Positions 6,495-10,396 of a stretch of 10,409 nucleotides of DNA are shown here, piece by piece; within the stretch, counting starts at the first letter, position 1, and each line of letters starts with the position of its first letter. The notes below the pieces were generated by a model that did not search any database, was not told where the DNA came from, and saw nothing but the letters and a program-made list of their open reading frames with translations. The position numbers and the translations under genes are program-made. Source of the DNA: Candidatus Methanodesulfokora sp. (GTDB taxonomy: Archaea > Korarchaeota > Korarchaeia > Korarchaeales > Korarchaeaceae); contig JAGDWR010000047.1 in NCBI GenBank assembly GCA_023269865.1, positions 1 through 10,409 on the forward strand, given 5' to 3'.

Positions 6495-6902
6495 TCACTT
6501 TACTACAGGTCTGAACTTATAGCCGTATGCTATGAAGCCTGACTCTCCGCATACCCTCAATATTCTCAGCGACATTTCCACCTCCATACCCTCTTTTACT
6601 TCCTCCGGATCCACATCCGTGAGCTGAGTCAGCACCTTAGCTCCGTTCTCAAGCTCAACAAGAGCTATTACATACGGTGTGTAATACTCATAACCTCTAG
6701 GAGGGTTGTGCACGACAGTATAGTCCAGAACCCTCCCTTTTCTCGGCAATTTCTCCTCCGATATAAGGTGAGATCCGCATCTTGGACAGGTCCTTCTGAA
6801 CGGGAAGAATTTGTAGTCGCAATTGTTGCATTTTCCTCCTATCAACATGTACCTTCTGGATCGGCTTCTCCAGTAGGAGGGAACACTTAGCCAGCTATAC
6901 AT
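6495..6902 (-). CDS. DUF35 zinc-ribbon/OB-fold protein, partner of the thiolase and HMG-CoA synthase
   Basis: This 135-residue protein has an N-terminal rubredoxin-like zinc ribbon formed by Cys25/Cys28 (CNNC) and Cys39/Cys42 (CPRC), followed by an OB-fold with the conserved region from about 55 to 115 (KGRVLDYTVVHNPP, then YVIALVELENG). This is the DUF35 (OB-fold, acyl-CoA-associated) family. In a methanogen, a DUF35 protein bridges acetoacetyl-CoA thiolase and HMG-CoA synthase and helps form a shared CoA-binding channel. All four zinc ligands are present and the length is normal. ATG 6902 follows AGGAGGTGAT with three bases of spacing, and that ribosome-binding site contains the thiolase stop codon. 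Its job here is therefore inferred as scaffold of the same three-protein complex. Confidence 0.9.
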   Translation of the reverse strand: MYSWLSVPSYWRSRSRRYMLIGGKCNNCDYKFFPFRRTCPRCGSHLISEEKLPRKGRVLDYTVVHNPPRGYEYYTPYVIALVELENGAKVLTQLTDVDPEEVKEGMEVEMSLRILRVCGESGFIAYGYKFRPVVK

Positions 6903-6906
6903 GAAA

Positions 6907-8028
6907 TCACCTCCTCAACACGGCAACAATGCAACTGCTAGCCAGCCCTCCCAGGCTGACAACAGCACAATTTTTTGCTCCCTGAATTTGATACCCATCT
7001 GCGGCTCCCTTAAGTTGCATATATGACTCAGCTAACTGATAAATACCACTTGCCCCAACGGGATAACCTCTTGCCTTCATTCCTCCTTCTGGGTTTATTG
7101 GAATCTCTCCATCTCTTCTGAATTTTCCGTTCTCAGTATCCCTGGCTGCTTTCCCCTTATCCGAAAGTCCTAAAGACTCTATCTGCAGATATGCAAGTAC
7201 ACTACTTGTATCATGTATCTGGATGAAGTCCAGATCCTTGATCCCGATGCCAGCTTCCTGCATAGCCATATTAAATGCTGATGTGACATTTTCCAAGTCA
7301 AGTGAATCCACTCTATGTGTAATTATAGCTTCATTCCCGCTAAATCCGATACCAGCCACTTTTACAGGTCCATCAGATCTACTTAATATTATTGCTGCTG
7401 CGCCATCTGCCTCAGAGGGTATATCCATTAGTTTCAATGGTGTTGAGACGTAAGGGGATTCGATATACTCCTTCATGCTGACCTTGAACCTCAATTGTGC
7501 ATGAGGAACATTGATTGCATTTTCATGCATCATAATTGGAAAGTGGCCGAAATCTCTCTCCTCCAGCTTATACCTCCTCATATACTCTCTCATCATCAAG
7601 GCATGATGTGAGTAAACCGTTGCTCCAAGAATTCCCTCATGCTCCCTATTTATAGAGCTGGACACGACAGATGAGATGTCCTCAAGCGATGTCACATCGC
7701 TCAGCTTCTCCACACCTATAAGCAGTATCCTATCATATCTGTTCAACAATGAACATGCAGCTACTAGGGCAGCCCCTCCAGAGGCTCCTTCCAACTCGAT
7801 TTTAAATGATGGTTTTCTTGCCATTCCCAAGTTTGAGGCTATGTGGGCAGCAAGATTCTCCTGACCATTGGCCACACCAGAGAAAGCATTTGCCACTATT
7901 ATGGCGTCCACCTTTTCAGTATTTGCATCCCTCATTGCTTGTTCAGCTGCTTCAAAGGCCAAATCCTCTATCGACATGTTCCAATGACTGGATACTTTCA
8001 TCAGACCAGCACCTAATATAGAAGCCAT
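6907..8028 (-). CDS. Thiolase-family protein with degenerate active-site motifs
   Basis: This 373-residue protein has the thiolase fold and lies between HMG-CoA synthase and DUF35, where archaea encode acetoacetyl-CoA thiolase. Thiolase landmarks are clear: GVEKLSDV (105-112), SEADGAAAIILS (205-216), IHDT (271-274), NPEGGMKARGYPVGASG (312-328) and a C-terminal SLGG (358-361). The active-site loops differ from the family pattern. The usual C-A-S-G nucleophile loop reads E-G-A-S-G-G, putting Gly81 at the Cys position. GHP reads GYP (Tyr322 for the catalytic His). The SCP2-type HDCF reads HDTS. The frame is intact and the neighbouring residues are well conserved, so it is not a decaying pseudogene. 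It may lack thiolase activity and serve a structural or CoA-handling role, or use different chemistry. ATG 8028 follows GAGGTGAT by four bases, and the stop of the upstream gene lies in that site. Confidence 0.88.
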   Translation of the reverse strand: MASILGAGLMKVSSHWNMSIEDLAFEAAEQAMRDANTEKVDAIIVANAFSGVANGQENLAAHIASNLGMARKPSFKIELEGASGGAALVAACSLLNRYDRILLIGVEKLSDVTSLEDISSVVSSSINREHEGILGATVYSHHALMMREYMRRYKLEERDFGHFPIMMHENAINVPHAQLRFKVSMKEYIESPYVSTPLKLMDIPSEADGAAAIILSRSDGPVKVAGIGFSGNEAIITHRVDSLDLENVTSAFNMAMQEAGIGIKDLDFIQIHDTSSVLAYLQIESLGLSDKGKAARDTENGKFRRDGEIPINPEGGMKARGYPVGASGIYQLAESYMQLKGAADGYQIQGAKNCAVVSLGGLASSCIVAVLRR

Positions 8029-8038
8029 TTAGATCACC

Positions 8039-9124
8039 TCAGTATCCGCTGAAGTCCTTCAGGAGTGTTATCATCCTTCTGTTCCTTGCATATATTGCAT
8101 AATCAACGTATCTCTTCCTGCTTATGTAATCCATCACCTTTGGTGCCAAGTCCTTGACCCCTTCAATCTTATCTGTTACCTCTATGTGGAATGCATCACT
8201 TCCAGCTCCCGAGCCAAATGAAACCATCAGTATCCTCTGGCCTGGAGAAGCCACATCTAGAATTGCTGAGAGTCCGATTAAAGAAGAGCCGCTATAAGTA
8301 TTTCCTATGTATGGAGTTATTAATCCTGGTTTTATCTTCTCCGGAGGGAAGCCCAAACGTTGTCCTACTCTCAGTGGAAACTTTCCATTTGGCTGATGGA
8401 AAACAGCATAATCATAGTCCTCAGGTTTTGTCCCGATTTCCTCCATCAACATTTTAGCAGCCTCTATTATATGGTGGAAGTAGGCCGGTTCACCTGTAAA
8501 GGCCCTTGTATGGGCCGGATATTTTTCATGTTGTCTTCTCCAGAAGTCAGGGGTATCGCTTACATATGAGCAGCTCGCTTTTATCAAAGCAACTGATCTT
8601 TCTGCTGGTCCTATGACAAATGCAGCCCCTCCAGATGATGCTGTATACTCCAAAGCATCTCCTGGTGCTCCTTGAGCTGTATCAGCTCCTACTACAAGGC
8701 CGTAATCTATCATGTTAGATCCGACAAGCCCTATAACTGCTTGCATTGCCTCTGTTCCTGCTTTACATGCGAACTCAAAGTCTGCCCCTGTTGTAGCCCT
8801 CTTCTGGCCGCCTATTCCTAATGCCTCAGCCAATATTGTTGATGTAGGTTTTACAGCATAGGGTTTTGATTCTGTCCCAACGTAGACAGCATTTATTCTA
8901 GAGGGGTCTATTCTAGCCCTTTTAATTGCATTAGAGGCAGCTTCATACGCTATTGTGAACGTGTCCTCATCTATACCAGGGACGCTCTTTTCCTCCACCA
9001 TTATCCCTGCAGCATACCTCTTCCACTCTCTTCCCCAAGCTCTAGCAAGCTCCTCTGATCTTATCCTGTACATGGGAACGTAAACTCCCCATCCCACTAT
9101 CCCAACTTGCCTATCCGGTCTCAA
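8039..9124 (-). CDS. Hydroxymethylglutaryl-CoA synthase, archaeal type
   Basis: The enzyme condenses acetyl-CoA with acetoacetyl-CoA to HMG-CoA, the committed entry to the mevalonate pathway for archaeal isoprenoid lipids. The 361-residue protein is of the archaeal/UPF0219 type. The opening [15 protein letters not shown] is characteristic. The expected catalytic residues are present: Glu85 in [14 protein letters not shown], Cys120 in [13 protein letters not shown] (the acyl-enzyme cysteine) and His243 in [10 protein letters not shown]. Other conserved parts are [23 protein letters not shown] (146-168, given by its ends) and GNTYSGSS (274-281). The start is TTG at 9124; it follows AGGAGGTGAT by three bases, and the nearer ATG in another frame meets a stop at once. 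It is the first gene of the synthase-thiolase-DUF35 operon, with 10 bases to the next gene. Confidence 0.95.
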
Positions 9125-9246: not shown

Positions 9247-10002
9247 TTACTCAAGCCTTTTCCTGAGGGATTCCACGAGATCCCTCGTGCTCTCCATTTT
9301 AGAAACTGCCAAGGGGACGCCCATTATCTCAGCGAGTCTTATTCCAAGCTTATCCACAGACTCTGGCTTGAGACCATGTAGCACAACCAAACTTGGTCTT
9401 ATGTCGAAGACTTTTAAGGCGACCATAGGGCTTCTTCCAGTCCCAACTCTCGTGAATATAAGAGCTCTCTCCGTCGAGGAACCGAAGAGCTTCATAAAAT
9501 CTGTTCCTGATAGATTCTCTATCGCTCTTATGCTGTCTATGATAGTGTAGCCATGTATCAATGTATTGCCTGGAACGATGAGCTCTCCATCGATCCACTC
9601 GATGAATTTTTCAAGCTCCACTGGGATCGTCATCTCCGCCATATCTATCACGCTCGAGAGAAGCAGACCAATTCCCATGGATTTTGCGAGAACTCTGAGT
9701 TTCTTTCCTCCTGTCTCCTCATCTTTTGCTATTATCGCCTGTATAAACCTCTTGAGGACATAGGATCCTGGGCTTTTCCTCCTGCCTGACTCGTAATCCG
9801 ATATCACAGATGCCGATATTCCCAGCATTTTTGCAAGCTCGCTTTGCTTCACTCCAAAATATTCTCTCCACTTTTTCATGGCTAATCCTATGTTTGATGA
9901 GTAAAGGATATCTCCTGCTATCTTTTTGGCGACCATTTCCTTAAGAACTCTCCTATGATACGACATCGGCTCCATTTCTTCCTCGTCCTTTATCTCCACC
10001 AA
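9247..10002 (-). CDS. XRE-family transcriptional regulator with conserved archaeal C-terminal domain
   Basis: This protein of about 251 residues has a Cro/C1-type helix-turn-helix at roughly 39-95. The sequence MKKWREYFGVKQSELAKMLG leads into the recognition helix region ASVISDYESGRRKSPG (64-79). The second half (about 130-251) is conserved-looking, with HGYTIIDSIRAIENLSG (150-166), STERALIFTRVGTGRSPM (176-193) and VVLHG (206-210). From memory this matches an archaea-specific group of predicted regulators (COG1709-like) in which the C-terminal half may sense a ligand; that assignment is not verified. It lies 122 bases upstream of the HMG-CoA synthase operon on the same strand, so control of that operon is a reasonable inference. 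The start is uncertain: TTG 10002 or GTG 9999, both following GGTGAC (10016-10011) at wider spacing than other genes here. No strong terminator follows, so read-through into the next operon is possible. Confidence 0.85.
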   Translation of the reverse strand: MVEIKDEEEMEPMSYHRRVLKEMVAKKIAGDILYSSNIGLAMKKWREYFGVKQSELAKMLGISASVISDYESGRRKSPGSYVLKRFIQAIIAKDEETGGKKLRVLAKSMGIGLLLSSVIDMAEMTIPVELEKFIEWIDGELIVPGNTLIHGYTIIDSIRAIENLSGTDFMKLFGSSTERALIFTRVGTGRSPMVALKVFDIRPSLVVLHGLKPESVDKLGIRLAEIMGVPLAVSKMESTRDLVESLRKRLE

Positions 10003-10048: not shown

Positions 10049-10396
10049 TTATTCTCTCCTGTATATGACTTCCTTAAGAACGGTCTCGAGCTCATCATCA
10101 GAATGATTTATTGTCCTGATTAAATTCATATCCTCAGCTACCATGACAGCAGCTATATGATAACAAAATCTTCTCTCTTCTCTTACTATAACGCTCAATA
10201 GGAAATCTATACAACTGCAGTAATTTCTATCAAAAACTATATAATCTCCTTCTTTTCCTCTGACTATATAAAAGGAGAAGCCGCTCGGAAGAAAGACATG
10301 TCTCTCTACTCCTCCTCTGTAAACCACATCTAAGAGCTTCTTTATGCTTCTTTTTGGAAGCTCTTTTCTGAGAAAGCTGTATTTTACAGGTATCAT
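10049..10396 (-). CDS. Small SWIM zinc-finger protein
   Basis: This 115-residue protein is built around a SWIM zinc-binding motif: Cys60-x-Cys62 (NYCSCIDF) and Cys78-x-His80 (RFCYHIAA), with Ala83 completing the CxHxxA pattern. The part before the motif (about 33-56, VFLPSGFSFYIVRG to YIVFDRN) looks like a beta hairpin, as in other SWIM proteins, and a helix follows. SWIM modules bind DNA or proteins; the CxC...CxHxxA form is the one described for the Shu2/SWS1 family, which works with RecA/Rad51-type recombinases. No RadA paralogue is visible here, so a recombination role is only a possibility. ATG 10396 is the start: an in-frame TAA lies four codons upstream. No ribosome-binding site is visible in the 13 bases before the window edge, so it may be leaderless. 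Confidence 0.8.
   Translation of the reverse strand: MIPVKYSFLRKELPKRSIKKLLDVVYRGGVERHVFLPSGFSFYIVRGKEGDYIVFDRNYCSCIDFLLSVIVREERRFCYHIAAVMVAEDMNLIRTINHSDDELETVLKEVIYRRE

Follow-up and report, generated by a model that had tools for sequence, protein, structure and literature searches.

A thiolase-fold protein without its nucleophilic cysteine, probably kept as a non-catalytic subunit beside HMG-CoA synthase in Korarchaeia

Why would an archaeon keep, next to its gene for 3-hydroxy-3-methylglutaryl-coenzyme A (HMG-CoA) synthase, a thiolase without the residues on which thiolase chemistry depends? The question is raised by a contig of 10,409 nucleotides from Candidatus Methanodesulfokora sp. 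(GenBank assembly GCA_023269865.1, contig JAGDWR010000047.1), analysed here at full length and called the window. Reading frame, domain match, alignment and predicted fold identify an SCP2-type thiolase-fold protein encoded on the minus strand (6907..8028), between the genes for HMG-CoA synthase (HMGCS) and a DUF35 protein; the frame starts with ATG and runs for 373 amino acids with no internal stop. The explanation that we favour, with a probability of about 0.6, is that this protein is a pseudothiolase kept as a subunit of a korarchaeal HMGCS/thiolase/DUF35 complex, acetoacetyl-CoA being supplied by a separate thiolase.

The catalytic loops of the protein are altered at three places. Codon 81 (GGA, 7786..7788, minus strand) encodes Gly at the position of the nucleophilic Cys of C-x-S-G: a HMMER alignment to 6esq_A sets Gly81 on the Cys of EAACASG, which is Cys85 in the numbering of PMC6392133, and Gly81 also aligns with the nucleophilic Cys of 7YVY. 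Codon 322 (TAT, 7063..7065, minus strand) replaces the His of GHP by Tyr (GYPVGA), on the His of the GHA motif of 6esq_A. Residues 272–275 (7204..7215, minus strand) read HDTS where HDCF or HDAF is expected, with His272 and Asp273 kept and Phe275 lost. An earlier note on this DNA, made from the sequence alone, had pointed to these three loops, and all three changes are present in the intact frame. The ASG and GGxKARGxPxGA motifs are retained, and the predicted fold, of high confidence, matches the 6ESQ thiolase along the whole chain. Relative to a 6ESQ-type archaeal thiolase, Cys85 has thus become Gly81 and the GHA/GHP His has become Tyr322; acyl-Cys chemistry is therefore not available for the first of the two channelled reactions. 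The same conclusion, drawn in the earlier note, stands, as neither the alignment nor the fold match places a Cys at the nucleophile position.

Three other cysteines were considered as displaced nucleophiles and rejected. Cys92, which the earlier note had named as the residue that might fill the site, is set at that position neither by the alignment of sequences nor by the match of folds; it lies 11 residues further along helix 80–94 and is Thr in G022, another genome of the genus. Cys366 is not kept in G022. All three genomes of the genus share Cys354, but readable copies from the sister genus g4 have Ala or Gly there. Against the NCBIfam equivalog NF053570 (cut-off 600 bits) the window thiolase reaches 229.6 bits, a weak criterion because the paralogue L002, which has its Cys, stays below the cut-off as well (320.9 bits).

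The change does not look like an artefact. Sequencing error is unlikely because Gly81, His272 and Tyr322 recur in both other genomes of the genus, G022 (thiolase 52% identical, with HDSS at the HD loop) and G023 (87% identical). A frameshift or assembly error is disfavoured by the same two genomes and by the ratio of non-synonymous to synonymous substitution rates (dN/dS). In comparison with the closest named organism, Candidatus Methanodesulfokora washburnensis MDKW, whose thiolase is 87% identical and whose gene order is equal, dN/dS is 0.050 for the thiolase and 0.051 for the neighbouring GatD (NG86; dS 1.4, near saturation). Ten nucleotides separate the HMGCS stop from the thiolase ATG and four separate the thiolase stop from the DUF35 ATG. 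The ribosome-binding site GAGGTGAT precedes both the thiolase and the DUF35 genes; read directly at 8033..8040 (minus strand), that of the thiolase gene overlaps the HMGCS stop. Together, this spacing, the ribosome-binding site and the low dN/dS bear out the earlier suggestion that the gene seems to be maintained.

One qualification concerns the HD loop. The step from HDCF to HDTS is real, but as an argument it is weaker than the earlier note made it, as the Cys of HDCF is missing in 32 of 101 readable Cys-bearing cluster thiolases (HDAF 25, HDSF 4, HDST 2, QDST 1; one further Cys-bearing row, gapped there, lies outside the 101). Loss of this Cys alone is thus not unusual, and the changes at positions 81, 322, 275, 138 and 358 are more informative.

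The survey of residues 81 and 322 in orthologues that had been proposed carried the change into other archaea, well beyond a single protein. Among 198 sampled genomes of relatives, HMGCS was detected in 144 at E 1e-60, and all 144 carry at least one PF22691 (SCP2-type) thiolase; in G028, G053, G174 and G175 the stretch fetched with HMGCS contains no thiolase, and these four lie outside every Cys count. A Cys-less thiolase adjoins HMGCS in 37 of 140 archaeal genomes, a sample that favours Korarchaeia (26 genomes), and in 18 of 114 without that class. The latter figure comes from 119 HMGCS loci in 118 genomes outside Korarchaeia. In 114 of these genomes the stretch includes a thiolase, whose nucleophile residue is Cys in 96, Asp in 10, Glu in 4, Thr in 3 and Gly in 1; all 18 Cys-less loci have a DUF35 match in the stretch. 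Parsimony calls for at least 7 changes of Cys state when the HMGCS tree is used and for 9 with the thiolase tree, which includes extra sequences and has several poorly supported deep branches. Throughout, the partner enzyme is intact: HMGCS Glu85, Cys120 and His243 are present in 140 of 140 genomes, including the window copy (8039..9124, minus strand; TIGR00748, 557 bits). One genome, G139, has two HMGCS genes, L169 (42% identical to the window's) beside a Cys-bearing thiolase and L130 with none in the stretch. Its thiolase state was read from L169 and its HMGCS residues from L130, and it was left out of the trait counts for independent pairs, the thiolase tree set, the column counts and the divergence comparison.

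In nine families outside Korarchaeia the HMGCS-adjacent thiolase has a residue other than Cys at the nucleophile column (Asp, Glu, Thr or Gly), and HD and GHP are often intact (L051–L169; for example, L051, L058, L061, L133 and L160). A carboxylate at this column may reflect something other than simple loss.

Within Korarchaeia, HMGCS is present in 26 of 26 genomes and its adjoining thiolase lacks the Cys in 19 (L003, a duplicate of L004, is left out of these counts). Residue 81 is Gly throughout the window's genus, g1 (three genomes); it is either Gly (11) or Asn (5) in the 16 genomes of g4, and Cys in the other 7. The GHP site of g4 reads GNP in nine genomes, GDP in five and GHP in one (G016), with one not readable; in five g4 genomes the HD loop has become GE or EE at an unchanged place in the operon. 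Among the matches listed, none of the Cys-less copies has an internal stop, although one G013 copy (L027) is cut by contig ends and lacks column 322. The 19 proteins form one clade (FastTree support 100), the sister of which (support 85) is a Cys-bearing korarchaeal clade comprising the cluster thiolases of g2, g3 and g5 and the g1 paralogues L002, L029 and L030.

A separate thiolase is the presumed source of acetoacetyl-CoA in the Cys-less genomes. PF00108 thiolases (E 1e-40) occur in 31 of 37 genomes with a Cys-less cluster thiolase versus 7 of 103 with a Cys-bearing one (Fisher test, 1.7e-18), and any second thiolase (PF00108 or a further match to PF22691) in 37 of 37 versus 17 of 103 (4.8e-21), tests that ignore kinship and, for the second thiolase, counts that rest on Pfam matches with fragments included. 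Counted by lineage (families, the korarchaeal family split by genus), the latter contrast is 11 of 11 versus 9 of 48. In each of the 37 Cys-less genomes the sequence of the second thiolase, which lies elsewhere, was read and has its Cys; for the 17 Cys-bearing genomes with a second thiolase, that residue was read in G005, G042, G050, G104, G139 and G197 only. The Cys-less genomes without PF00108 (G026, G027, G035, G038, G060 and the window's own, G000) carry separate thiolases of SCP2 type, in which the nucleophile column holds Cys, and a classical PF00108 thiolase, complete with CAS, NEA, GHP and the second Cys, occurs in 18 of 19 Cys-less Korarchaeia versus 1 of the 7 others. That the window protein is the organism's only thiolase was rejected on the ground of L002, the Cys-bearing paralogue.

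The Cys-less copies have also diverged faster. At HMGCS identities of 0.90–0.95, thiolase identity is 77% for Cys-less versus 96% for Cys-bearing copies (23 and 18 pairs), and at 0.85–0.90 it is 68% versus 89% (55 and 37 pairs); these are non-independent pairs, drawn for the most part from different lineages. The korarchaeal family alone points in the same direction, with Cys-less thiolases 64% identical at 85% HMGCS identity (171 pairs) and Cys-bearing ones 69% identical at 75% (10 pairs). Of 95 positions highly conserved in Cys-bearing cluster thiolases, 51 are kept in the korarchaeal Cys-less ones. Columns 81, 275 and 322, all catalytic, belong to those altered most completely, and Phe138, present in 102 of 102 Cys-bearing copies, remains in 1 of 37 Cys-less ones. 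This pattern of divergence and column losses is consistent with a scaffold that stays constrained while its active site has been released.

The explanation that we favour runs as follows: the protein would occupy the thiolase position of the HMGCS/thiolase/DUF35 complex with its thiolase chemistry, and presumably all activity, lost. Fold and operon place would be kept as HMGCS would need the subunit to assemble, a step that we infer because thiolase and HMGCS have a common CoA site in the Methanothermococcus thermolithotrophicus complex (excerpts of PMC12329534 and PMC6392133); the pseudothiolase would complete that CoA-binding site. Acetoacetyl-CoA would come from a separate thiolase, candidate suppliers being an AtoB-type enzyme in G022 and G023 and, in the incomplete G000, the Cys-bearing paralogue with its own DUF35. 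The earlier note had offered three functions, a complex-shaping pseudoenzyme, a CoA or acyl-CoA binder and an enzyme of other chemistry. The first is best supported because HMGCS is intact, separate intact thiolases are present, the Cys-less copies evolve faster and the catalytic columns are among the most completely lost. A precedent is the PhlABC acyltransferase (PDB 5M3K), which, like this locus, combines thiolase-like, HMGCS-like and DUF35 subunits and has one subunit without its catalytic Cys (PhlA Gly115; excerpts of PMC6392133). The two are mirror images: in PhlABC the HMGCS-like subunit lacks catalytic residues and the thiolase-like PhlC keeps Cys88, whereas here the thiolase catalytic residues are lost and the partner HMGCS active site is intact. 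MucABC (9VBO) also matches by fold. An archaeal protein of the same fold, ST0096 of Sulfolobus tokodaii (PDB 4YZO), has Ser at the Cys column in the alignment but, unlike the window protein, keeps the GHP His.

Several observations weigh against this explanation. His272-Asp273 is kept in the genus and Gly81 with Tyr322 appears in other clades, as if selected, and for some of the lost highly conserved positions no catalytic role is assigned. The 72% complete genome G000 yielded no AtoB-type gene; given this incompleteness, and since G022 and G023 each have one, absence of AtoB from the lineage is not claimed. Second thiolases occur in 17 of 103 Cys-bearing genomes too, and stand-alone thiolases may serve other pathways; the classical thiolase of G006 (L041:949-5158) lies beside acyl-CoA dehydrogenase and electron-transfer flavoprotein (ETF) genes. 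In five supported, phylogenetically independent pairs, on average 3.3 agree, 0.0 oppose and 1.7 are equal for any second thiolase (median p 0.25), and 3.0 agree, 0.1 oppose and 2.0 are equal for PF00108 (median p 0.25). The association between Cys loss and a second thiolase is thus strong in counts and nearly uniform in direction, but not significant after strict phylogenetic correction. Finally, the aldolases TcLtp2 and CtSal are active despite Gly at the nucleophile site (excerpts of PMC12329534).

These aldolases define the competitor that survives best, an active thiolase-fold enzyme with non-Cys chemistry that would catalyse an acyl-CoA aldol or retro-aldol reaction with a DUF35 partner, Tyr322 acting as general acid and His272 as base or in the oxyanion hole. 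Ltp2–ChsH2(DUF35) and Sal–Shy(DUF35) (6OK1, 9MYR) resemble this locus in having Gly at the nucleophile column and a DUF35 partner, and according to excerpts of PMC12329534 CtSal, in which Gly at the Cys position makes thiolysis impossible, is nonetheless active. Tyr322 falls on the GHP-His column of TcLtp2 (6ok1), which holds Tyr344, and Thr274 falls at the position of CtSal Cys304, the second acid residue being compared in each case; Tyr344 follows Tyr294 of YDHF by 50 residues (excerpts of PMC12329534), the spacing of 272 to 322 here. Purifying selection (dN/dS 0.050) and the recurrence of Gly with Tyr would also suit an active enzyme. This pair accounts for 90 of the 154 sequences with Gly at column 81, in a set chosen by similarity to Cys-less queries together with the cluster thiolases, and it appears in separate parts of the thiolase tree, in one clade of Nitrososphaerota/Thaumarchaeota where named to phylum and in another with one Anaerolineae-named member; it also adjoins HMGCS in G089. 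A different pattern, Cys with Asn at the GHP His, occurs in 4 of 195 homologous proteins, which were picked by similarity to two Cys-less queries, such that proportions are not frequencies. However, the catalytic base of Ltp2 and Sal is the Tyr of YDHF/YDCY, where the window protein has His272, and these are enzymes of bacterial steroid pathways with a hydratase partner, about 21–23% identical to it. The neighbour here is HMGCS, with no hydratase among the window genes. In the sister genus g4, residue 322 is Asn or Asp (His in G016) and residues 272–273 are GE or EE in five genomes, and Cys-less copies outpace Cys-bearing ones relative to HMGCS. On balance, we hold non-Cys chemistry of this kind to be rather unlikely.

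A more specific form of this idea takes Gly81/His272/Tyr322, as a constellation reached separately in Methanodesulfokora-type korarchaea, in the Nitrososphaerota P0028-type proteins and in a P0030-type clade, to be a convergent new active site, that of a thiolase-fold acyl-CoA aldolase or lyase beside korarchaeal HMGCS, acting for example on HMG-CoA or another β-hydroxyacyl-CoA. We consider it unlikely. The large P0028-type clade (P0028, P0085–P0152 and relatives) mostly reads GASG, HDSYS and GYPVGA, and its tree position suggests a separate Cys loss; a search for its gene neighbourhood gave no match at E 1e-90 in 198 genomes or at 1e-85 in 394. Another homologue, P0083, reads GASG, YDCY and GQP and so shares the residue pattern of Sal, the bile-acid aldolase of Comamonas; its best PDB match is 9MYR.

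The window protein could instead be a dead acyl-CoA carrier or gate that binds acetoacetyl-CoA or CoA made elsewhere and hands it to HMGCS, a proposal that overlaps with the pseudothiolase subunit and differs only in what is selected, here ligand binding. The CoA site common to thiolase and HMGCS in M. thermolithotrophicus (excerpts of PMC12329534 and PMC6392133) and the retained ASG and GGxKARGxPxGA motifs favour it, yet Phe138, Asn358 and Phe275, filled in nearly all Cys-bearing copies, are lost, and we regard it as quite improbable. A gene in decay but not yet lost would explain the faster evolution relative to Cys-bearing orthologues, but it sits so badly with the dN/dS of 0.050, the high-confidence fold, the preserved ribosome-binding site and operon, and a Cys-less form free of internal stops among the matches listed in 19 of 26 Korarchaeia that we give it hardly any weight.

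The rest of the window places the protein in its setting. The source genome, G000, spans 1.04 Mb. On the minus strand lie a helix-turn-helix regulator-like gene (9247..10002, profile match), upstream of HMGCS and in the same order in MDKW (L003), then HMGCS, the thiolase-fold protein, the DUF35/ChsH2-type zinc-ribbon OB-fold protein (6495..6902, profile match), presumed to be the bridging subunit, GatD and GatE; a family B DNA polymerase gene occupies the plus strand. The HMGCS, thiolase and DUF35 arrangement is the same in MDKW. A 115-amino-acid protein at 10049–10396 also precedes HMGCS, again as in MDKW, and has no Pfam or NCBIfam match at E 0.001. In the g1 paralogue loci L002 (15-3088), L029 and L030, a Cys-bearing SCP2-type thiolase directly follows genes with thiamine pyrophosphate (TPP)/ferredoxin and POR domains, which we take to be IorA/IorB-like; L002 and L030 have their own DUF35 beside them, and a 2-oxoacid or aryl-CoA route is possible for this cluster. 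At L035:4844-6142, the neighbour of a korarchaeal classical thiolase is a flavoprotein that matches the ETF-QO domain; in a domain scan that covered this locus and L041, the two settings suggest an acyl-CoA redox cluster.

Among the titles and abstracts listed by literature searches, none dealt with archaeal HMGCS clusters whose thiolase lacks the Cys. In the accepted view, the archaeal thiolase/HMGCS/DUF35 complex works by channelling and stands at the start of the mevalonate pathway, where the thiolase would be expected to make the first building block of the membrane lipids. A pseudothiolase in the thiolase position would separate the catalytic role of that subunit from its structural role. 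Some source names label Cys-less relatives as acetyl-CoA acetyltransferase, probably in error; this bears on pathway reconstruction and on the transfer of archaeal mevalonate genes to other hosts.
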